Shown in pieces: positions 17,620-48,190 of a stretch of 64,000 nucleotides of DNA (positions are counted from its first letter, which is position 1; the number at the start of each line of letters is the position of its first letter). This stretch comes from Magnolia sinica. Taxonomy: Eukaryota > Streptophyta > Magnoliopsida > Magnoliales > Magnoliaceae. Location of the stretch: NCBI RefSeq assembly GCF_029962835.1, contig NC_080577.1:6634001-6698000 (forward strand). The letters are read 5' to 3'. A program made the translations under genes and the position numbers. The notes under the pieces were generated by a model. The model was not told the DNA's origin, searched no databases, and saw nothing but the letters and a program-made list of their open reading frames with translations.

Positions 17620-18389
17620 TGCAAGGAGATGAGGCCAATGAGGTGTTGAAAGCCCAAGGCCATATATGGAACCATGTGCTTAACTTCATTACTTCCTTGT
17701 CCCTCAAGTGTGTCGTTCAACTAGGCATACCAGACATCGTTCACAGCTATGGCCGTCCCATGACTCTCTCCCAGCTGGTGGACGCACTTTCGATCGCTCC
17801 TGCTAGAGCGGCTCATGTGGGCCGTATCATGCGTTTGTTGGTCCACTCGGGCTTCTTTGCCTTACAAAAAATCAACGGTGATCAAGGAGGAGATGAAGAA
17901 GGATATGTGCTGGCACCACCTTCTAGGCTCCTGTTGAAGGACACTGCGACATGCATGTCGCCGTTTTTGCTGGTGGTGCTAGATCCAGTTGTAGTAATGC
18001 CGTGGCATTTCTTGAGCACTTGGCTCGTAGGGGATGATCCAACAACAGCCTTCAAGACCGCACACGGTATGGACATGTGGGACCACATGGCGCAGAGCCC
18101 TAGGCATCATAACTTATTTAATGATGCCATGGCTAGCGATGCTCAGGTAGCCATGAGCATAGTTGTTAAAGAGTGCGGTCTGGTCTTCCAAGGGTTGCGA
18201 TCATTGGTCGATGTCGGAGGCTGCACAGGAACTGCCACCAGAGCTATCGCCAATGCGTTCCCACACGTGAAGTGCACCGTGTTTGATCTCCCACACGTGA
18301 TTGCGAGCATGCCAAAGAGTAAGAACGTAGATATGGTTGGAGGGGATATGTTTGAGCCCATTCCTTGTGCGGATGCAGTTTTCCTCAAG
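17619..18389 (+). pseudogene. O-methyltransferase exon-1 copy, 5'-truncated and lacking exon 2
   Basis: An open frame parallel to residues 8-264 of the intact gene at 27802-30481, about 97% alike (roughly 20 base differences, many changing amino acids). The codon matching Met8 is CTG, no in-frame ATG precedes it, and a stop lies a few codons upstream. It keeps the SAM-binding motif I (LVDVGGCTG) and a normal-looking donor (aag|gtatac) at 18389/18390. The catalytic exon 2 was not found within the homologous intron stretch, which ends near 19198. A fold-back MITE abuts its 5' edge. Most likely a dead gene fragment. The alternative is an extra first exon able to splice to the exon at 30179, which sequence alone cannot exclude. 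Confidence 0.8.
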
Positions 18390-19198
18390 GTATACTTGTT
18401 TTACTTGCAGTTTACTATTCCGAAGTAGAATTTTCCACTACAGCTAGCGATCAATCTGAATAAGTGTGTCATCTACTGACGACCGTTAGTAGTTGGGACC
18501 GCTACCTCATATGTTGGTGGACCTTATATCTAACTATTTTCAGTTGGTGGGCCCTATCAGAATGAGATTCCTAGATTTAGAAACACCTATTAGAGTCTCC
18601 TATTCGTCCAAACAAATAGATAGTTTAAATTATAAATATGACCCGAGTAATTTTTACAAGTGATCCTGGGTGTCCAGTTTATAATTAGGGTTTGATCGAA
18701 TGCTTAGTATTGTTGGATTGGTGTGATTTTTACATGTGGCCCATGAAATAATGTATGTTTGACCAAATGTACAGTTCAGATCACCAATGAAGTTCTCGTA
18801 ACCCAAAGATCTCTGGAGCCCACTGTGATGTGGGTGGGAAATTTGTCTATCAGTTTTTCCCGCTCATGTTAGGACGATTCAAGATCCACGTGACCATATC
18901 ACAAGAAACGGTGGGGATTGTACGCTAACCATGGAAACTTTCTCGTTGCTGTTGTTTCCGGTGGTGTGGCCCACTTTATTCTTCGATCTACCTCATTTTT
19001 AGGATCTCATGCAAAAAAGATATGACAAAACTGATTGACAGAGTGGATATAACATTGATATCACCACGGCCCCACAAAGCTTTTAAGTTACTGGAAGTGC
19101 TTGTAATAGGTGCTACTGGAGTAGAAACCGGTCCACAATATTATTATTAATTATCTGTTTGCATGGCTATTTTATCAGTTTGCGTGTCTCTGTAGCCA
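18390..19198 (+). other. Intron-homologous sequence of the truncated O-methyltransferase copy
   Basis: Matches the first ~930 bases of the intact gene's intron (28594-29523), with phrases such as 'agtagaaaccggtcc' shared. It includes a fold-back element at about 18820-19085 also present in the other copy. Homology stops near 19198, before any exon 2. Confidence 0.8.
18820..19085. mobile_element. Fold-back MITE in duplicated intron
   Basis: Arms around 'cacaagaaacggtggggatt' and 'gctgttgtttccggtggtgt' are inverted versions of each other. The same element sits at about 29091-29360 in the intact gene's intron, so it inserted before the gene duplication. Confidence 0.65.
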
Positions 19199-21990: not shown

Positions 21991-22427
21991 GATTATTGTC
22001 CGAGTGGGGTCGGATGCAATCGGCTTCCACTTGCAGACGGGTTAGATGCAAAACTTGCGTTGCGTGACATTTACCCGCAAGGCCCCAGTCGCATTCACGA
22101 TGTATCACGCAATTCTCGTGCACAAAGTTTGTACTGGTACAACTTCACTTTGTACAACCGGGACAGCTATTTCATTTATCTAAGCCGTTGATATTGCATG
22201 CATCATCGTAGAGTTAGCATGCACGAAATATCTCAAAGATTGTAATATCCTAACCATTCGATAGGTGCCCAAAAATAGATGACTAAGAAATATTCACATT
22301 CAACCAATATTTTATAGCTAGGATCTTCAAATCATAGGCAGATGCTATCCATGGGGAATTCCATCGGTTTGGATTGCTGAATCACTGGCCTTGCTTGTGC
22401 TAGCTGAAAGCCAAAGCATGCTGTATA
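21991..22427 (+). promoter_or_regulatory. Displaced native 5' flank of the O-methyltransferase gene
   Basis: Before the Copia insertion this DNA would have joined directly to 27662 (shared GTATA at 22423-22427 and 27662-27666). It should therefore hold the gene's original upstream promoter elements, now 5.2 kb further away. No individual motif can be named with confidence. Confidence 0.6.
22423..22427. repeat. Target-site duplication, left copy (GTATA)
   Basis: Five bases GTATA immediately before the 5' LTR, repeated at 27662-27666 right after the 3' LTR. Confidence 0.9.
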
Positions 22428-22771
22428 TGTTAGATACGGGGAGATTTGCAAATCCAAAAACCGTGTGCAGCAAGCTGTTAGCTTAGATTTTTTCTTCTTC
22501 TAAGATTAGATTGCTAGCTATGAAGATTTCTTTCTAGATTTCTCTGAATTATTTTTTCTTTATTTAGCTACCCCTAGGATGAATCTAGACAGGGATAGTT
22601 TAGTAATTTCACACAATAAGAAAGCCTATAAATAGGCAGCAGTGTAATACGATTTTCTTATTCCAAAAGGCAGTTGCTGTTCTCTCTTCTTCTTCTTCCA
22701 AAAGTTGCTGTTTTTTGTTTCATGGTGGCTGCAGCCACACGTCAGCAGGAAGCTGGGTTTTAGACCCAACA
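22428..22771 (+). repeat. Copia 5' LTR
   Basis: 344 bases, TGTTAG...CAACA. A TATA-like box (tataaata) lies at 22627-22634. Confidence 0.95.
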
Positions 22772-22774
22772 AAG

Positions 22775-22786
22775 TGGTATCAGAGC
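22775..22786 (+). other. Copia primer-binding site
   Basis: 'tggtatcagagc', complementary to the 3' end of initiator tRNA-Met, three bases after the 5' LTR. Confidence 0.93.
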
Positions 22787-22837
22787 CGACGATCCTTGGG
22801 CCTCATCAGCAAGAGGCAGATCCTGCACTCCCGGTTT

Positions 22838-23210
22838 TCAAAAAAAATCAGTTTTTTTTTCAAAAGAAATCAGATTCCAGCCGCAGGTCTTCAAAAAAAA
22901 CTGTATTGAAAAAAATTAGATTGCAGCAAAAAAAATCTGTTTTTCAGAAAAATCAGATTGAAAAAAAATCTGTTTTAAAAAAAATCAGATTGAAAAAAAA
23001 TCTGTTTTTTTTTAAAAAATCAGATTGTAGCAAAAATCTGTTTTCAAACAATCAGATTGAAAAAAATCTGCTTTTTCAAAAAAAATCAGATTGCAACAAA
23101 AAAAAAAAAAAAAAAAAAAAAAAAATAAAAAAAAAAAAAAAAAAAAGTTTTTTATAAAAAAAAAAAAAATCTGTTTTTCTAGTCTATCCTTTTTTTAAAA
23201 AAAAAATAGA
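22838..23210 (+). repeat. A-rich leader with repeated CAGATT/AATCTG words
   Basis: Between primer-binding site and gag, about 370 bases consist of A (and some T) runs punctuated by alternating 'cagatt' and 'aatctg', which are reverse complements. About ten pairs could form small stem-loops in RNA. A very long poly-A-rich stretch spans about 23098-23172. It produces a lysine/isoleucine-rich open frame that is not a real gene. Confidence 0.85.
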
Positions 23211-23215
23211 AAAAG

Positions 23216-26200
23216 ATGGCTAGCACAATCCAGCCGCAGGTTCCTAAGTTGTCAAAGGACAACTATGAAAAATGGTGCATCCAAATGAAGGCATTGTTCG
23301 GGTCGCAAGAATTATGGGAAATCATCACGGATGGGTATGAAGAACCCACTATGGAAGAAGAAGCCGTCTTCACCAATGAAGAAAAGATCACTCTAAAAAA
23401 TCAGAGGAAGAGAGACAATAAAGCTTTGTTTCTCCTCTATCAAGGGTTGGATGAATCCACCTTCGAAAAGATTGCCGAAGCAATATCAAGCAAGCAAGCA
23501 TGGGATACCCTTGGCACCATCTTCAAGGGTGTAGATCGAGTGAAGCGGGTTCGCCTTCAAACATTGAGAGCCGAGTTCGAAGCAACTCACATGAAGGAAG
23601 GTGAGAATGTTACTGATTATTTTTCGCGTTTGCTCGTAACTGTCAATAATTTGAAAAGAAATGGTGAAAAGATTGAAGATGTCCGAGTTATTGAAAAGAT
23701 ACTTCGATCCCTCACAACCAAGTTTGAGCATGTCGTTGTGGCGATCGAAGAATCAAAAGATATTGAGAAACTCTCCATTGAGGAGTTGATGGGATCGTTG
23801 CAAGTTCATGAGCAACGAATGCAGAAGAATGTTAGTTCCATGCCGATGGAACAAGCTTTGGAGTCAAGATTGACTCTTAATGATAGCAATGGTGGACGTG
23901 GAAGTTCACAACGTGGTGGACGGTTTGCTAACAATCGCGCAAGAGGCAGAGGGCGCGGATACCAACAAAGTCATGCCCAAAACCAACAGAAAAATACCAA
24001 TTTCCATGGAAGAGGAAATGGTAGAGGTAGATCTATGCGTGGACGGGGAAGTACAAAGAACATCCAATGCTATAATTGCAACAAGCTTGGCCACTATGCA
24101 TCTAATTGTTGGAGCAAGCCGATGAATCAAGACGAGCGATCCAACTATGCCGAAGCATCAGGACATGAACAAGAAAGCTCCACACTTCTCCTTGCACAAG
24201 AGAAAGGTAGTGATCAGCAGGACGTATGGTATCTCGACACGGGTGCAAGTAATCACATGTGCGGCGACAAGAAACTCTTTGTGGAACTCACAGAAGGAGT
24301 TCATGGCGATGTAACGTTTGGAGACTCATCAAAAACACCTGTGAAAGGTAAAGGTAAAATCCAAATCTTTCAGAAGAATGGTGTTCCAAACTATATCTCC
24401 AATGTGTACTATGTGCCTAACATGAAGAGTAACATACTGAGTCTCGGACAACTCCTCGAAAAAGGGTATGTCATACACATGGAGAACTCTTCTCTTTCCA
24501 TTAGAGATTTGCATGGACGTTTGATTGTAAAAGTCCAGATGGCAAAGAACCGTATGTTTCCTCTCCATATAAACACAATGCTTGAGAAGTGTTTTTATGG
24601 AAAAGCAAAGAATGATTCCTGGATGTGGCATCTTCGCTTTGGCCATCTAAATTTCAGTGGCCTAAAACTTCTGTCCTCATCAAGCATGGTGCATGGTTTG
24701 CCTACTATTGAAGCTTCAGAACATGTGTGTGAGGCGTGCACACTTGGGAAACAACAAAGAAACTCCTTTCCGAGTGGAGTATCCCGAAGAGCAAGAGAAC
24801 CGTTGCTGTTGGTTCACACCGACATCTGTGGACCATTAGAGCCAATCTCTCTTGGAGGTAATAAATACTGTATTACCTTCATTGACGATTACCGTAGAAA
24901 ATTGTGGGTGTATGTAATTAAAGAGAAGTCTGCTGCTTTTACTATTTTTAAAAATTTTAAGGCCCTTGTTGAAAAAGAAAGTGGTCTTAAAATCAAAACT
25001 CTCCGATCTGACAGAGGTGGGGAGTACACCTCAAATGTTTTTCGAGAATATTGCAGGGAACATGGCATTAAGCAACAACACACTGCAGCGTACACGCCAC
25101 AACAAAATGGAATTGCGGAACGAAAAAACCGCACCATCCTCGATATGACGAGGACCATGCTGAAGGAGAAAAGTCTGCCAAAGACTTTCTGGGCAGAGGC
25201 AGTTGCATGTACTGCCTATCTGCTCAATAGGTGTCCAACCAAGAGTGTCAGATTCCGGACACCGCAAGAAGCATGGAGTGGATACAAGCCGAGCGTGGCG
25301 CACCTTAAGATCTTTGGGTGTGTCGCCTACGCTCAAGTTCCAGAAGCGAGAAGAAAAAAGCTTGATGATCGTGGCGAGAAGTGCATCTTCATCGACTGCG
25401 AAGAGTCAAAGGCATACAAGCTCTACAACCCACTAACCAATAAGCTGGTGGTGAGTAGAGATGTGGTATTTTGTGAGGAAGAAGCATGGAAATGGAACGA
25501 GGGAAACTCAGCCAAAGAAAAGCAAATCGAGGTTGAAGAATATGAAGAAGAGAGACATGAGAAGCAAGAGCAGACACCCACATCACCCCCTTCGGATCAC
25601 AGAAGTCCAGGAGTACGCTCCATCTCTCCTGGAAGTACTTCATCAAATCAGAATTCATCCAACACATCTTCATCCGATTCTCCTTCACCCTTGGCTCCCA
25701 TTAAAATGAAAAGCCTCAACGACATCTATGCAGAAACCGAGGAAGTGAATTTACTCTGTCTGTATGCGGACCACGAGCCTCTCACATTCGAGGAGGCTAT
25801 GAATGAAGAATGTTGGAGAAAGGCGATGGAAGAAGAGATTCATGCCATCGAGAAGAATCGAACATGGGAGTTGACCTCACTCCCCAAAAGCCAGAAGACC
25901 ATTGGTCTCAAATGGGTGTACAAAATCAAGCGGAACGCCGATGGTAAGATCGAACGATATAAGGCAAGGCTCGTAGCAAAAGGCTACAAACAGAAATATG
26001 GGGTAGACTATGAAGAAGTTTTCGCCCCAGTTGCTCGCCTTGACACTGTAAGAATGATTATCTCCCTTGCAGCTCATCACAGTTGGATGATCTACCAACT
26101 GGATGTGAAATCTGCATTCTTAAATGGGGTACTCGAAGAAGAAGTATACGTTGACCAGCCTGAAGGCTTTGTCATGCAAGGGGAGGAACACAAGGTGTAT

Positions 26201-27310
26201 CGGCTAAAGAAAGCCCTATATGGGTTGAAGCAAGCTCCCCGTGCTTGGAATGCACGGATTGACAGTTATCTTCAAGAGAATGGCTTCGTCAAATGTCCGT
26301 ATGAGCATGCAGTCTACACAAAGAAGAATGCCCGTGGTGATATCCTTATCGCTTGTTTATATGTTGATGATCTGTTGTTCACTGGGAACAGCCAGGCGAT
26401 GTTTGAAGAATTCAAGCAGGCTATGTTCAAAGAGTTTGAGATGACTGATGGTGGATTGATGTCTTTCTTCTTGGGCATTGAAGTGAAGCAACAAGTCGAC
26501 GGCATTTACATATCCCAGAAGAAGTACACAAAGGAACTTCTTGAGAAGTTTCAGATGGTCAATTGTAAAGCCGTAAATACACCTGTAACAACAGGCCTGA
26601 AGCTCACAAGAGATGGAGAAGGAAGAAACGTCGACTCAACCCTATTTAAGAGCCTAATCGGAAGCTTAAGGTACCTCACAATCACTAGGCCAGATATAGT
26701 CTACAGTGTTGGGATTCTAAGCCGGTATATGGAAGCCCCAAAAGAGTCACACTGGCTAGCTGCAAAACGAGTACTGAGGTATATCAAAGGGACTATTGAA
26801 TTCGGTCTCTTTTATCCATACGATGATGAAGCGATGTTGTATGGATACTCTGATAGTGATTGGGGTGGTGACCAAGATGAAAGAAAAAGTACCACAGGCT
26901 ATGCTTTCTATCTTGGGTCGACAACATTTACATGGAATTCAAAGAAGCAGAGTGTGGTCGCCCTGTCCACATGTGAAGCTGAGTACGTAGCAGCTTCATC
27001 CACTGTATGTGAGGCGATCTGGCTAAGGAATCTGCTAAAGGAGCTGAAGCATCTACAGGAGGAATCCACTGTTATATATGTGGACAACAAGTCGGCAATC
27101 GAACTTGCCAAAAATCCAGTTCAGCATGGAAGGAGCAAGCACATCGACACAAGATATCACTTTCTTAGAGATCAAGTAAAGCAGAAATTGGTAAAGCTGG
27201 AATACTGTCACACCACTGAGCAAGTGGCAGATATCTTCACCAAAGCATTGCCAACTGACACATTCAGGAGACTTAGATCAATGCTTGGAATGAAGCCGGT
27301 TTTGGCTTGA
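23216..27310 (+). CDS. Copia gag-pol polyprotein
   Basis: One open frame of 1364 residues, of normal length for a compact plant Copia. Domains in order: gag (about 1-270; [13 protein letters not shown] near the start); CCHC zinc knuckle [14 protein letters not shown] (about 285-298); aspartic protease with DTGAS (about 341); GAG-pre-integrase and integrase with the HHCC region (HLRFGHLNF...CEACTLGK) and catalytic core (VHTDICGP about 533; RGGEY); reverse transcriptase with YVDDLLF (about 1048); RNase H with YSDSDWGGD (about 1210). Gag and pol share one frame, as is usual in Copia. The lineage within Copia is not assigned with confidence. Confidence 0.95.
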
Positions 27311-27317
27311 AGGGGAG
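27310..27317 (+). other. Copia polypurine tract
   Basis: 'aaggggag' directly before the 3' LTR, the plus-strand priming site. Confidence 0.9.
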
Positions 27318-27661
27318 TGTTAGATACGGGGAGATTTGCAAATCCAAAAACCGTGTGCAGCAAGCTGTTAGCTTAGATTTTTTCTTCTTCTAAGATTAGA
27401 TTGCTAGCTATGAAGATTTCTTTCTAGATTTCTCTGAATTATTTTTTCTTTATTTAGCTACCCCTAGGATGAATCTAGACAGGGATAGTTTAGTAATTTC
27501 ACACAATAAGAAAGCCTATAAATAGGCAGCAGTGTAATACGATTTTCTTATTCCAAAAGGCAGTTGCTGTTCTCTCTTCTTCTTCTTCCAAAAGTTGCTG
27601 TTTTTTGTTTCATGGTGGCTGCAGCCACACGTCAGCAGGAAGCTGGGTTTTAGACCCAACA
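27318..27661 (+). repeat. Copia 3' LTR
   Basis: 344 bases, apparently identical to the 5' LTR. It ends 140 bases before the O-methyltransferase ATG and carries tataaata at 27517-27524, so LTR-driven read-out into the gene is possible. Confidence 0.95.
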
Positions 27662-27671
27662 GTATAAACTC
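27662..27671 (+). promoter_or_regulatory. Probable TATA box of the O-methyltransferase gene, rebuilt by the Copia target duplication
   Basis: 'gtataaactc' lies 139 bases before the ATG at 27802, a normal spacing for a plant core promoter. Its first five bases are the target-site duplication, so the Copia cut within the box and its flank and the duplication regenerated it. In-frame ATGs at 27688, 27703 and 27709 fall near or after the expected start of transcription. Confidence 0.65.
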
Positions 27672-27801
27672 TCTGCCCGAGCATTTTATGCTATCTTTAT
27701 ATATGGGTATGCGTGGGTGCGTTAACAGGCAGAACTTGAACGTGAGTTACGCTAAAAGGAAGAGGGAAGAACAAATCAGTAGTTTGAGACGTGTGTTAGC
27801 G

Positions 27802-29468
27802 ATGGCGATGGCGATGGCGGTCATGCAAGGAGATGAGGCCAATGAGGAGTTGAAAGCCCAAGCCCATATATGGAACCATGTATTTAACTTCATTAATTCC
27901 ATGTCCCTCAAGTGTGCCGTTCAACTAGGCATACCAGACATCGTTCACGGCCATGGCCATCCCATGACTCTCTCCCAGCTGGTGGCCGCACTTTCGATCG
28001 CTCCTGCTAGAGCGGCTCATGTGGGCCGTTTCATGCGTTTGTTGGTCCACTCGGGCTTCTTTGCCTTACAAAAAATCAACGGTGATCAAGGAGGAGATGA
28101 AGAAGGATATGTGCTGGCACCACCTTCTAGGCTCCTGTTGAAGGACACTGCGACATGCATGTCGCCGTTTTTGCTGGTGGTGCTAGATCCAGTTGTAGTA
28201 ATGCCGTGGCATTTCTTGAGCACTTGGCTCGTAGGGGATGATCCAACAACAGCCTTCAAGACCGCACACGGTATAGACATGTGGGACCACATGGCGCAGA
28301 GCCCTAAGCTTCATAACTTATTTAATGAGGCCATGGCTAGCGATGCTCAGATAGCCATGAGCATAGTTGTTAAAGAGTGCGGTCTGGTCTTCCAAGGGTT
28401 GCGATCATTGGTCGATGTCGGAGGCTGCACAGGAACTGCCACCAGAGCTATCGCCAATGCGTTCCCACACGTGAAGTGCACCGTGTTTGATCTCCCACAC
28501 GTGATTGCGAGCGTGCCAAAGAGTAAGAACGTAGATATGGTTGGAGGGGATATGTTTGAGTCCATTCCTTGTGCGGATGCAGTTTTCCTCAAGGTATACT
28601 TGTTTTACTTGCAGTTTACTATTCCAAAGTGGAATGTTCCACTACAGCAAGCAATCTGAATGAGCCTCTGATCTTTTTTAATTTTTTCCTTTTTCTTTTT
28701 ATTTTTTATATTTTTGGGTTAGCTTGTTAATACACACCCCACTGTCAGTGTACACCCCATTGTCAGTACACAATCTGAATGAGCCTCTGATCTACTCACA
28801 ACCGTCAGTAGTTGGGACCACTGCCTCATATGTTGGCGGGCCCTATCAGAATGAGATTCCTAGATTTTGAAACACTTCTCTTATTCGTCCAAGCAAATAG
28901 ATGGTTTAAATTATAAAATTGGCCTGAGTAAATTTTATAAGTGATCCTGAGTGTCCAGTTCATAAGGCTTTTGATTGAATGCCTAGAATTGTCGGATTGG
29001 TGTGGTTTTTACATGGTAGCCCATAAAATGCATGTTTGACGAAATGTACAGTTCAGATCACCAATGAAGTTCTTGTAACCAAGTTCTTTGGAGCCCACTG
29101 TGATGTCAGTGTGAAATTTGCCTATCAGTTTTCCCGGCTCATGTTAGGACGGGAGCCGAAAAATGAGTCAGATCCAAGATCCACGTGACCGTATCACAAA
29201 AAACGGTGGGGATTGTATGCTAACCATGGAAACTTTCTTAGAGCTGTTGTTTCCTGTGGTGTGGCCCATTTTATTCTTCTATCTACCTCATTTTTGGAAT
29301 CTTATGCAAAAATGATATTGAAAAACTGATTGACGGAGTGGATTTTACATTGATATCATGGTGGGTCCACAAAGCTTTTATGTTTACGGAAGTGCTTGTA
29401 AGAGGTGCTACTGGAGTAGAAACCGGTCCCCATTTATTAATTATCTGTTTGCGTGGCTTTTTTTTTCT

Positions 29469-29502
<34 letters not shown>

Positions 29503-30481
29503 TCGGTTTGCGCCTCTATAATCATATTTTTTACATCTGAGAATGACTCGACATTCATCAATTTTACATTTGAGAAATGATAAGTGCTGCCTCTGGGATT
29601 ATAGGGATACTGTACGTACGGTGCATGCTTTTCTGTCATTGGGTTATTTAAGGAAATCAAATTGAGAATGGCTCGACATTCATCAATTTTACATTTGAGA
29701 AATGATAAGTGCTGCCTCTGGGATCACAGGGATACTGTACGTACGGTGCATGCCTTTCTGTCATTGGGTTATTTAAGGAAATCAAATACGTTCAAAAGGT
29801 TGGCCACATCATTTAGAACGCCTAATGTCAAAATAGCAATGATCCAGAACCTTATATGATGGATCAGATATTGATCGAAATCACAATCAGATAATATTAG
29901 TCATCAATTGACGACTTTTGACTTATGAACGAAACAACTGGTCTATCAGTCCTCAATGCTCCTCCAATCAGAAACTATGATCGCCTAGCATCTTCTGATT
30001 TTGGATGAAGCCCACCAGATGAAAGGTCCAGATTTAAAAAACGCAAACCATGTTGAATGTCTAATGACGAAGATAACATTGGTAGAATTGGACCCTCTCT
30101 CTTCATATCATCCCATTCATCTAATTATTAAATCATGGCCAACAATGGGTGCTTAACAATCATGATAATGGATTACAGTGGATTCTACACGATTGGAGTG
30201 ATGAAGAGTGCGTGAAGATTCTGAGACGGTGCAAGGAAGCGATCCCTTCAAAAGAAGAGGGTGGGAAGGTAATTATTCTGGACATGGTCGTGAACATGAA
30301 AAATGGAGATTACAAGTCAACTGAGACACAATTCTGCTTCGATCTATTGATTTTGGTTCTCTTTGGTGGTAAGGAGAGGGGTGAGCACGAATGGCGAAAA
30401 ATCTTCATTGATGCCGGTTTCACTCAATACAAGATTTCACCTGTCCTTGGTATGCGGTCCATTATCGAGGTATATCCATAA
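27802..30481 (+). CDS. Plant type-I (COMT-like) O-methyltransferase, two exons
   Basis: Exons 27802-28593 and 30179-30481 (donor aag|gtatac, acceptor acag|tgg, phase 0) give 364 residues, the family's usual size. It transfers methyl from S-adenosylmethionine to phenolic or alkaloid hydroxyls in the cytosol. Seen: N-terminal dimerisation domain (about 12-115; HIWNHVFNFINSMSLKCAVQ); SAM motif I LVDVGGCTG (203-211); catalytic His268 in LHDWSDEEC, with Asp299 and Glu330 (GGKER) at the usual assisting positions; C-terminal GMRSIIEVYP typical of flavonoid, stilbene and benzylisoquinoline methyltransferases. Substrate cannot be told. The motif-I third Gly is Cys209, unusual but shared with the truncated copy. 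The start is among ATGs at 27802, 27808, 27814 and 27823. The frame is also open upstream to the LTR, with in-frame ATGs from 27688. A Copia sits 140 bases upstream. Confidence 0.93.
29091..29360. mobile_element. Fold-back MITE in the O-methyltransferase intron
   Basis: Same insertion as at 18820-19085. This copy is fuller, retaining 'gagccgaaaaatgagtcaga', which the other has lost. Arms pair around 'acaaaaaacggtggggattg' and 'gctgttgtttcctgtggtgt'. Confidence 0.65.
29539..29788. repeat. 125-bp tandem duplication in intron
   Basis: Units 29539-29663 and 29664-29788 differ at only about five positions by eye. Both contain 'gatactgtacgtacggtgca', itself a near-perfect palindrome. The high similarity suggests a recent duplication. 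Not present in the truncated copy's flank. Confidence 0.92.
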
Positions 30482-35890: not shown

Positions 35891-35934
<44 letters not shown>

Positions 35935-42838: not shown

Positions 42839-45800
42839 CACGGGTACAGTCTCGGTCAAGGGCTCGGTGCGAGGGCGTGGGCATGTGAGGCAGTGTGGCT
42901 GTAGAGGCGCTAGTGGCACACTTTGCACTTTGAACCGGAGTAAGATGTGGATGGGTTTCTAAACCATCTCAACTCACTCCAGCAAATCCATACGAACTGA
43001 GACAACCAGCCCTTCTCCACTCATATATTTTAGTGTTTCCAGCAACATAGCAAGGCTTAAACCTTAGCTTGAAGAACAGACCAGTTGTGTGGTCTAGGAA
43101 GGTTCAACTGAACTAGTGGCTGAAGATTTGAACTGACCTGTGCAGAAGTCGAAACTACTTTTCTTTTCTTTTCTTCTTCTTTTGGGATTTTTCTTTTATA
43201 CTGTAATATTGCCAGAAAGTATGTAATTGAGTTCCATTTGGTGGGCCTTCGTGTTTGCTGAACGCAGACCCACACCAGGCTCGTCGTATCCTAGAAGCTG
43301 TTTGCCTGTAACCTATCAGCATACTCAATTCACTTAAGTAGGGGCAAATAACGCTTTAAGGATAGCGTTTCAGACGTGCTTCAGCCTGTCCTGATTTCAG
43401 ATTATTTTGCAATTTTTGGTTTCCACATTATACAGAAATACATTAATCTATATAATTTTTAACAATCTTAAAGCGTTCTTTATTTGATGGAAGCTGACAG
43501 TGTTTCATCCATCAAGTTGATGAATCAGGACTTGATACGTCTTGATCGGTTCGATGGAACCAATTTTACAAGATGGCAAGACAAGCTGAAATTTCTCCTG
43601 ACGGCGCTGAAGATCTATTATATATTATATCCAAATTTGTAAGCACTACTTGAAGCATCTGACAAAGACACACCTGAACAAGTAGTTGCCCACACCAAAA
43701 GAGCCGAAGACGAACTCTTGTGTCGAGGACACATTCTGAACGCTCTCTCTGATCGCCTGTACGATCTATACCAACAGACGTCATCAGCAAACGAGATCTG
43801 GGCTGCTCTGAAATTCAAATACAAGGCTAAAGAAGAAGGTATCAACAAGTTTCTCATCACCAGGTATTTTGACTTCAGCATGATAGATAATAAACCGCTG
43901 CTGCCCCAAATCTAAGAACTGCAACTAATAGTAAACAAAATCAAAGTGATAAAAATCGATCTTCCTGAATCATTCCAAGTTGGGGCTATAATCGTCAAAT
44001 TGCCACCGATGTGGAAAGACTATAGAAAGAAGTTGTTGCATAAAATCGAGGACTACACACTGGAACAAATCCAAAAACACCTCAGGATTGAGGAAGAATC
44101 CCGTAACCGCGATAGAAAGAATGATAACGGGAATACCTCGTCCAAGGTACATGCAGTAGAAAACACTAATAACAAATATCCTGAGAAAGACGATTCCCTT
44201 AAACCTAATAAAGGAAAATTCAAGAAGAACACCCAAAAGAAGAACGGAAAGTTCAAGGGTCCATGCCATATTTGTGGAAAAACCGAACACTATGCTCGAG
44301 TATGCCGCTATCGCAAATCTAAAAAAGAGGCAAGTGCAGTAGAAGAAGGCGATATTGTGGCTATGATTACTGAGGTGAATACCATCCATGGCAAAGTTCC
44401 AGGGTGGTAGTATGATACTGACGCTATTATACATGTGTGCTACTACAAATCAGCCTTCAAAACATATGAGGAATTGACCAATGGTCAAGAAGTCCAAATG
44501 GGTAATGAAGTCCGATCGAAGGTCGTCGGCAAAGGAACTGTCGAACTGATATTCACCTCTGGAAAGAAAGTGATTCTAACTAATATACTGCACGTCCCAG
44601 ACATGAGGCGAAACTTAGGTTCTGGGGATCTTCTGAGAAAATCAGGCATACTGGTGGTGTATGAGTCAGGTAAACTGATTCTGTCCAAAAATGAGAATTT
44701 TGTCGGAAATGGATATGCTTGTAACGGAATGGTTAAGTTTTCTCTGAATGAAAGTAGCACTTCTACGTATATGGTTGAATCCGCTGAACTGTGGCATGAT
44801 AAACTAGCCCATATAGGGTATAGTACCTTGAAGTTCATGGCTAAGAATGGTTTAATCTCATACACAGATAATGAAACCGAAAAATGAGAAGTGTGCATAA
44901 GATCCAAAATGACAAAGAAACCTTTTCCGAGTGTTAAAAGATCATCTCAAGTATTGGATCTTGTGCACAGTGATATCAGTGAGTTAAACGACATTCTTAC
45001 TCGTGGAGATAAATGGTACTTTATAACCTTTATAGATGATTGCTCTGGGTATGTATATGTGTACCTATTAAAGAGCAAAGATGAAGCATTAAACATGTTT
45101 AAAATATATAAAGCAGAAGTAGAGAATCAACTGAATAAGAAGATAAAAATTCTCCGTAGCGATAGAGGAGGAGAATACTTCTCCAATGAATTCGATAACT
45201 TCTGTGAAGAACATGGACTGATACATCAATGTACAGCGCCATACACACCTCAACAAAACGGAATAGCTAAAAGGAAGAATAGAATGTTAGTAGAGATGGT
45301 CAACTCAATGCTGATAAGAGCAAAGTTGCCACTTAGTCTATGGGGTGAGACACTGTTTGCAGCGTGTCATATAATAAACAGAATTCCGTCTAAAAAATAT
45401 AAAATATCTTCATATGAAATATAGAGAAGTAGAAAACCTAATTTAGGATATCTAAAAGTGTGGGGGTGTCTTGCATATAGCAGAACCCCTGATCCAAAAA
45501 GAACTAAGTTAGAACCAAGAGCTATTAAGTGCACCTTCGTAAGGTATGCACAAAATAGTAAAGCTTATAGACTTCTAGACATGGAGTCTAATTCAATAAT
45601 AAAATCAAGAGATGTTGAGTTCTTTGAAAACTCACTATCCTTGGAGTCAAAAGATAATGAAATCCAAACTCTAAATAGAGAACCAGATAGCACAGCTCCA
45701 TAGATAATGGAAGCTCCTATTGAACCTCGTAGGAGTCAAAGAACAAGAATGGAGAAGAGTCTAAGAGATGACTTTATAGACTCACAACGTGTCATTTTCC

Positions 45801-48190
45801 ATTTTGTAGAAGGAGATAGAGAAAATGTTATAAGGAAAATACCTATAGTAATGACTATAGAAGATGATCCTAAAACATATAAAGAGGTTGTATCCTCTAG
45901 AGACTCAGCTTTCTGAAAAGAAGCTATAAACGATGAAATGGAATCCATACTATCAAACCAAACATGGGAACTAGTAAACTTACCTCCAGGTTCTAGACCC
46001 ATAGGTTATAAGTGGGTATTTAGGAAGAAATATCACACTGATGGGACTATCCAAACCTTTAAAGCTCGACTAGTAGCTAAGGGTTTTAGACAAAAAGAAG
46101 GGATATATTACTTTGACACATACTCACCTGTAGCTAGGATAACATCCATTAGGATATTATTTGCGCTAGCTTCTATACATCATCTTCACATCCACCAAAT
46201 GGATGTAAAGACCGCATTCCTGAATAGTGACCTCAATGAGGAGGTATACATGGAACAACTTGAAGGTTTCGTTCTACCAAGAAATGAAAACAAAGTATGT
46301 AGATTAGTCAAATATTTGTATGGATTAAAGCAAGCACCAAAACAGTGGCAGGAGAAGTTTGATTCTAAAATACTATCTCATGGTTTCATGCATAATGTAG
46401 TTGACAAATGCATATATTCTAAAGTAGATGGTAATTATATCATTATTATTTGTTTGTATGTTGATGACATGTTAATAATAAGTAATGAAATGGAAGGTGT
46501 GACTAAAATAAAGAGGTTTCTATCTTCCGTATTTAAAATGAAGGATCTTGGACAAGTTGATACCATTCTAGGTATCAAAGTTAAAAAATATTGTGGGGGT
46601 TATGCTTTGTGTCAATCTCATTATATTAAGAAGATATTAAATAAGTTTAACCATCTAAATATAAAAGAAGCAAAGACCTCATTTGATCCAAGTATCAAGC
46701 TAAAAGAAAATACTGGAAGAACAGTTGCACAATTAGAATATGCGAGTGCGATAGGGAGTCTTATGTATGCTATGCAATGCACTAGACCTGATATCACATA
46801 TGCTATAAGTAAACTTAATAGGTTTACTATTAACCCCAGTACTGAACACTGGAATGCAATCAGTAGAGTCTTTGGTTACTTAAAAGTAACCAAAGACTTA
46901 GGACTATTTTATTCAAAATTTCCTACAATATTGGAAGGATATACCAATGCGAGCTGGATATCAAGTGTAGGGGACAACAAGTCTACTACGGGGTGGGTAT
47001 TCACCCTAGGAGGTGCAGCTGTATCTTGGGGATCCAAGAAACAGACTTACATAACGCATTCGACTATGGAGTCTGAATTTATAGCCCTGGCTGCAACAGG
47101 CAAAGAGACTGAGTGGCTAAGGGATTTTCTATTAGAAATTCCTTTATGTGTAAAGCCTATATCAGCTGTGTCACTACATTGTGATAGTGAAGCCACATTA
47201 GCTAGAGCCTATAGCGGCACTTATAATGGTAAGTTTAGACATATTAGTCTTCGACATGATTATGTCAGACAATTGATTCGAGATGGAATCATTGCTATTT
47301 CTTATGTGAAATCAAGTAATAACCTGACAGATCCTTTCACTAAACCTCTACCGAGAGAGGTAGTAAAGGCTACATCTAGAGGGATGGGGTTGAAACTCTT
47401 CAACTAAAGTTCCACCAGTGATGGTAACCCAACCTAAAGTCAGAAAATCTCTAATTTTGGGTTTAATGGGTAAGAACAAGTCACTGATATGTGGAATATT
47501 TTCAACACTAAATTATAAAACCTCATCCATAATAGATAAGTGCTGAGCGTTACGATAGAGGGTTGAGTCTTAGAACTCTTAATGAAATTCAGTTTATAAG
47601 GACAAGTATCTTATAGTAACGGAGCCACTGAAAGGATTTCACCTATATGAACGTATAGATGGTGCCGTCTCTCATGAGAGTTAGGAGTTTTCTCTCGGGA
47701 TCATTCACGAATTAGGATAAGTACATGGACATTAATTGTGCTGAGCAAGATTGTGGGAACTCTAACAAACACATAGTGAATATGTGTGTGGTTTCTCCGA
47801 CTCTGTTATCTAGGAATAACTGGTTCAACGCTACAGCTACCAGTCATTTCAACAGAGTTTTGAAATACTTACATTAAGGAAAGATTAAAATCGAAAGATA
47901 TCTTTCTTTATGCATATAAGCTGATTATTTTGGCAGTATTGTTTAACCGAGAAAATAATTTTATAAAATCAAGTGGGGGATTGTTGCAAAAAATATTGAT
48001 TTTAATAAAATATATTTCAATAATAAAATAATATATAATATATAAAAAGTTGTTTTGAAAAACACTTTTTCTGTGGGTTTTTGGGAATAGTCCCACATGG
48101 AAAAGGGAAGAGAAAAATCTGTGGTTTATATGAAGGATGTGGAGTATTAAAATATTTACCTACCTAGTCCGTGGACTATGGACCTTGCCT

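Follow-up and report, generated by a model that had tools for sequence, protein, structure and literature searches.

At the MYB gene Ruby of blood orange, the 3' LTR of the copia-like element Tcs1 supplies the transcription start and the regulation, according to the account of this locus in the review PMC5056178. The same account includes a copy in reversed orientation at Ruby, so that sense orientation is not strictly required. Insertion of an LTR retrotransposon into a promoter is also described for rice Hwc3, as at the locus studied here; the element at Hwc3, unlike the present one, is 1740 bp long with 103-bp LTRs; that it is absent in other varieties is known, and it was complementation-tested (PMC6382335). 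A further likeness is found in rice stress genes, where mPing parts the core promoter from upstream DNA, although in the account of PMC3782648 mPing is a small DNA transposon, whereas the present element is an LTR element. A young copia insertion upstream of a gene is an ordinary event of a known kind, of which Tcs1 at Ruby is an example.

In the window analysed here, a 64,000-nucleotide stretch of Magnolia sinica DNA, a full-length copia element occupies positions 22428–27661 of the + strand, in the sense orientation of an O-methyltransferase gene, and is flanked by GTATA target duplications, with the upstream copy at 22423–22427 and the gene-side copy at 27662–27666. Together with both duplications it spans 22423–27666; the preliminary description had given 22423–27671, of which the start is right, whereas the end takes in five native bases past 27666. 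The two 344-bp LTRs (22428–22771 and 27318–27661) are identical at 344/344 positions, have the ends TGTTAG...CCAACA, and the 3' copy reads in the sense of the gene. The 5' LTR is followed by the PBS-like sequence TGGTATCAGAGC (22775–22786), which we take to match the initiator Met tRNA, and the purine run GAAGGGGAG (27309–27317) stands ahead of the 3' LTR. An open frame of 1366 codons (23210–27310) encodes a copia-type gag, a zinc knuckle, an integrase and a reverse transcriptase, with the domains Retrotran_gag_2 at residues 25–206, rve at 529–629 and RVT_2 at 882–1126; all of these features lie on the + strand.

Chance does not account for identical LTRs flanked by a 5-bp duplication, and these features of Ty1/copia elements are present: TG...CA LTR ends with a short target duplication, a PBS and a polypurine tract in the expected places, and a copia-type gag and RVT_2 with the integrase encoded ahead of the reverse transcriptase. 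The element is a young, intact Ty1/copia LTR retrotransposon. As its LTRs show zero differences, it is at most approximately 0.3–0.6 million years old (95% upper bound, for substitution rates between 1.5e-8 and 7e-9 per site per year), which is young enough that empty alleles may persist for a clean comparison. A comparison of its reverse transcriptase with viral contigs returned six stretches that fit the pattern, none of which was confirmed as a relative. Elsewhere in the window, neighbouring open frames at 43916–47407 resemble, by eye, a broken second copia-type element; only 149 bp of this region align with the present element, at 67% identity.

The gene downstream consists of two exons on the + strand, exon 1 at 27802–28593, with the first ATG at 27802, and exon 2 with the stop codon at 30179–30481. 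The splice sites were assigned by visual inspection of their GT/AG context and by comparison with relatives, and the resulting product is an uninterrupted protein of 364 aa. It carries both domains of plant O-methyltransferases in complete form: Methyltransf_2 (PF00891, E 3.1e-58, profile positions 1–209 of 210) and Dimerisation (PF08100, E 3.2e-21, profile positions 2–93 of 93). The protein aligns nearly end to end with solved O-methyltransferases, the best being PoOMT1 (9waz, E 3.6e-139). For the best two solved relatives the alignment opens at residue 8 and residue 9 of the 364-aa form, and across the 60 solved relatives listed it starts at residue 5 at the earliest, the query being the form without an N-terminal extension. 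The intron contains a head-to-tail 125-bp duplication (29538–29787, 97% identical).

A second, partial copy of the gene lies at 17620–19173 and aligns with 27824–29463, which covers exon 1 together with a portion of the intron; a blastn search of the window found no copy of its exon 2 elsewhere. Both copies read VDVGGCTG (28411–28434 in exon 1; 18207–18230 in the partial copy) where the two aligned solved relatives have VDVGGGTG, a stretch that is presumably the SAM-binding motif, and judging from this variant the methyltransferase activity may be lower. Across exon 1 the copies differ at 19/770 aligned bases (one codon change is synonymous, 18 are nonsynonymous), and in the intron past 28645 at 86/689. 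Since synonymous sites have diverged much less than the intron has (0.6% versus 12.5%, Fisher p 5e-8), the comparison suggests gene conversion across exon 1; the nonsynonymous excess by itself is borderline (p 0.05). We also considered using the partial copy in place of the empty promoter and rejected it, as it holds none of the promoter: the alignment starts only at 27824, within the fourth ATG, and does not reach a start codon of the copy.

Once the element and one GTATA are taken out, the flanks join to gcatgctGTATAaactc (also written agcatgctGTATAaactc and gcatgctGTATAaactctctg), which puts the T of TATA 139 bp upstream of the first ATG. This reproduces exactly the junction of the preliminary description, which had proposed that the insertion split the TATA box GTATAAAC (27662–27669, + strand) of the gene and that the target duplication rebuilt it. 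Part of that account is supported: a copia element did insert in sense orientation within the proximal promoter, and native upstream DNA was displaced by about 5.2 kb. Its identification of the split sequence as the TATA box of the gene is not supported. The register in question, TATAAACT, has two mismatches to TATAWAWR and is absent from the list of sites with no more than one mismatch. The sequence TATATATG at 27698–27705 (+ strand), 35 bp downstream, untouched by the insertion and 104 bp ahead of the ATG, matches TATAWAWR without a mismatch. Within the 500 bp before the ATG of the empty allele, TATATATG at −104 ranks best, followed by an overlapping register at −106 (the overlapping registers of the untouched box span 27696–27705), and the site at −139 is third.

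This ranking is that of the scores of a TATA matrix that is general, not plant-specific: the GTATAAAC box has 3.14 and the box at 27698 has 7.37, and in the + strand background beyond the element these scores are reached by 5.35 and 0.66 sites per kb, respectively. A third candidate, the TATA-like box TATAAATA (CTATAAATAG) of the 3' LTR (27517–27524, + strand), has the top score of the three, 13.50, which is reached by 0.02 sites per kb. A TATAWAWR match alone is weak evidence, because the motif is over-represented in the window, with 81 exact occurrences versus 32.1 expected (shuffle mean), 24 of the 81 lying in a TA repeat at 35901–35930. Such comparisons rank the candidates and prove none of them; on this ranking, TATATATG at 27698–27705 is the likelier, predicted native TATA box.

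The leaders that the two native candidates would produce were also compared. In three rice genes the distance from the TATA box to the start is 38, 31 and 33 bp, as reported for these genes in PMC3782648. With this spacing, the start predicted for the 27698 box falls at approximately 27729–27736, with a pyrimidine-purine CA at 27726–27727, just outside this range, and no AUG lies between the predicted start and 27802. For the GTATAAAC box, a spacing of 31–38 bp predicts a start at approximately 27694–27701, after which the in-frame AUGs at 27703 and 27709 would add 33 or 31 residues to the predicted protein. An AUG after a very short leader may be skipped. The leader comparison indirectly favours the 27698 box over GTATAAAC.

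Taken together, a young Ty1/copia element has inserted in the sense orientation into the proximal promoter of the O-methyltransferase gene, and we consider it probable that it landed a short distance ahead of the core promoter (TATATATG, 27698) without entering it. The native core promoter would thereby survive, with 36 native bases (27662–27697) left ahead of the 27698 box, and the distal native DNA would now lie 5.2 kb from it. In addition, the 3' LTR could start a second, longer RNA near 27548, a position that is assumed from a distance of about 31 bp past the box at 27517.

That the 3' LTR could serve as a promoter had been proposed in the preliminary description, and its own box TATAAATA and its sense orientation agree with this. 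On sequence grounds an LTR promoter for the O-methyltransferase is plausible: the LTR has its own TATA-like box and lies upstream of and facing the gene, the structural arrangement of Tcs1 at Ruby. A stronger version, in which the 3' LTR has become the chief promoter of the gene and imposes the expression pattern of the element, would also fit the position of the LTR end, 140 bp from the ATG, the top score of its box and the start supplied by the 3' LTR of Tcs1, as summarised in PMC5056178. Against it stands the predicted leader of approximately 254 bases. This RNA would contain a 13-codon upstream ORF within the LTR (27612–27653, + strand) and then the in-frame AUGs at 27688, 27703 and 27709, whose frame is open into the gene (27688–27801, + strand) and which could extend the N-terminus by 38, 33 or 31 residues; little enzyme, or an extended enzyme, would therefore be expected from it. 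Young plant LTR elements are, moreover, frequently silenced. Such a takeover by the LTR is possible, although we hold it to be clearly less probable than the survival of the native core promoter.

The frame that would carry such an extension is stop-free from 27538 to 28659, running out of the 3' LTR, across the former leader and into exon 1 of the methyltransferase gene, and the predicted 38-residue extension contains 8 basic and 2 acidic residues. The possible LTR-started leader (27548–27811) showed no special fold, with a z-score of −0.86 and 40 of 200 shuffles folding as well. The filled allele might even yield two enzymes, the normal 364-aa form, started at the native core promoter, and an LTR-derived form with 31–38 extra N-terminal residues, possibly in another compartment; we regard this as very unlikely, but if true, the expression pattern and the location of the enzyme would both be new through a single insertion.

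The insertion might instead silence or weaken the gene, by detaching the core promoter from elements further upstream and attracting DNA methylation to the LTR. The native upstream DNA, now 5.2 kb off, is in keeping with such an effect, as is the case of rice OsDREB1A, whose cold response was reduced by mPing inserted between its TATA box and a regulatory element lying upstream; that insertion, however, was without effect under non-stress conditions, in the same account (PMC3782648). We rate a loss or weakening of expression as tentatively as a takeover by the LTR.

Less probable than either of these two is that GTATAAAC was the TATA box of the gene and that the element landed in it, leaving a working copy on the gene side: TATAAA is indeed intact at 27663, 139 bp ahead of the ATG, and starts in few random 5-bp targets, but the mismatches, the third-ranking score, the better box downstream and the in-frame AUGs of the resulting RNA make it improbable. 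Nor was the rebuilding of a box a special event, as the geometry of the duplication leaves the whole 5-mer on each side. Because a target duplication always does so, the rebuilding is uninformative on function; since the whole 5-mer stays joined to native DNA, the gene side is unchanged from the first base of the target onward. TATA-splitting itself would teach little for the same reason, the target word always being preserved on the gene side.

How often such a pattern arises by chance was counted on the + strand outside the element. TATAAA, a pattern picked after the fact, starts inside a 5-bp target at 190 of 58,706 positions (0.32%), and a TATAWAWR site with at most one mismatch does so at 1735 of 58,706 (3.0%). 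Targeting of TATA boxes by the integrase was considered and rejected, as there is one site only and the pattern was chosen post hoc (0.32% of random targets). The target may also be compared with the consensus ANGTT-TSD-AACNT of the rice copia element Tos17, as quoted in PMC6911290. Tos17, like the present element, has a 5-bp duplication, and the target ATGCT-GTATA-AACTC agrees, at the one site analysed, with its consensus at 6/8 fixed positions; 384 of 58,726 background positions (0.65%) fit as well or better. An integration preference may then lie behind the AAC with which the supposed TATAAAC ends, and the likeness of GTATAAAC to a TATA box would come from an AT-rich target that chanced to stand before AAC. 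The two patterns are about as rare as each other (0.32% and 0.65%) and are inseparable here, because both share the AAC. A palindromic target was rejected as well: the 15-mer is not unusually self-complementary, since 56% of background positions are as high, and for plant LTR elements overall any palindrome preference is slight, as stated in PMC6911290.

Narrow phrase searches of the open-licence literature returned no report of a retrotransposon insertion in a TATA box, and a narrow search of the same literature for LTR insertions acting as an alternative promoter likewise returned none; neither result implies that such cases are unpublished. Among the systems closest to the present one is Tcs1 at Ruby, as described in PMC5056178. 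In both, an LTR element lies in the promoter of a secondary-metabolism gene with its 3' LTR placed to supply the start. At Ruby, LTR-driven expression has been reported, whereas at the methyltransferase gene the LTR is a candidate promoter. The present case also differs from that described for Tcs1 in that the gene encodes a methyltransferase and in that an upstream ORF and in-frame AUGs stand between the LTR and the ATG. If the LTR does drive the gene, this locus would be, alongside Ruby, another natural case of a copia element rewiring secondary metabolism, here at the level of an enzyme.
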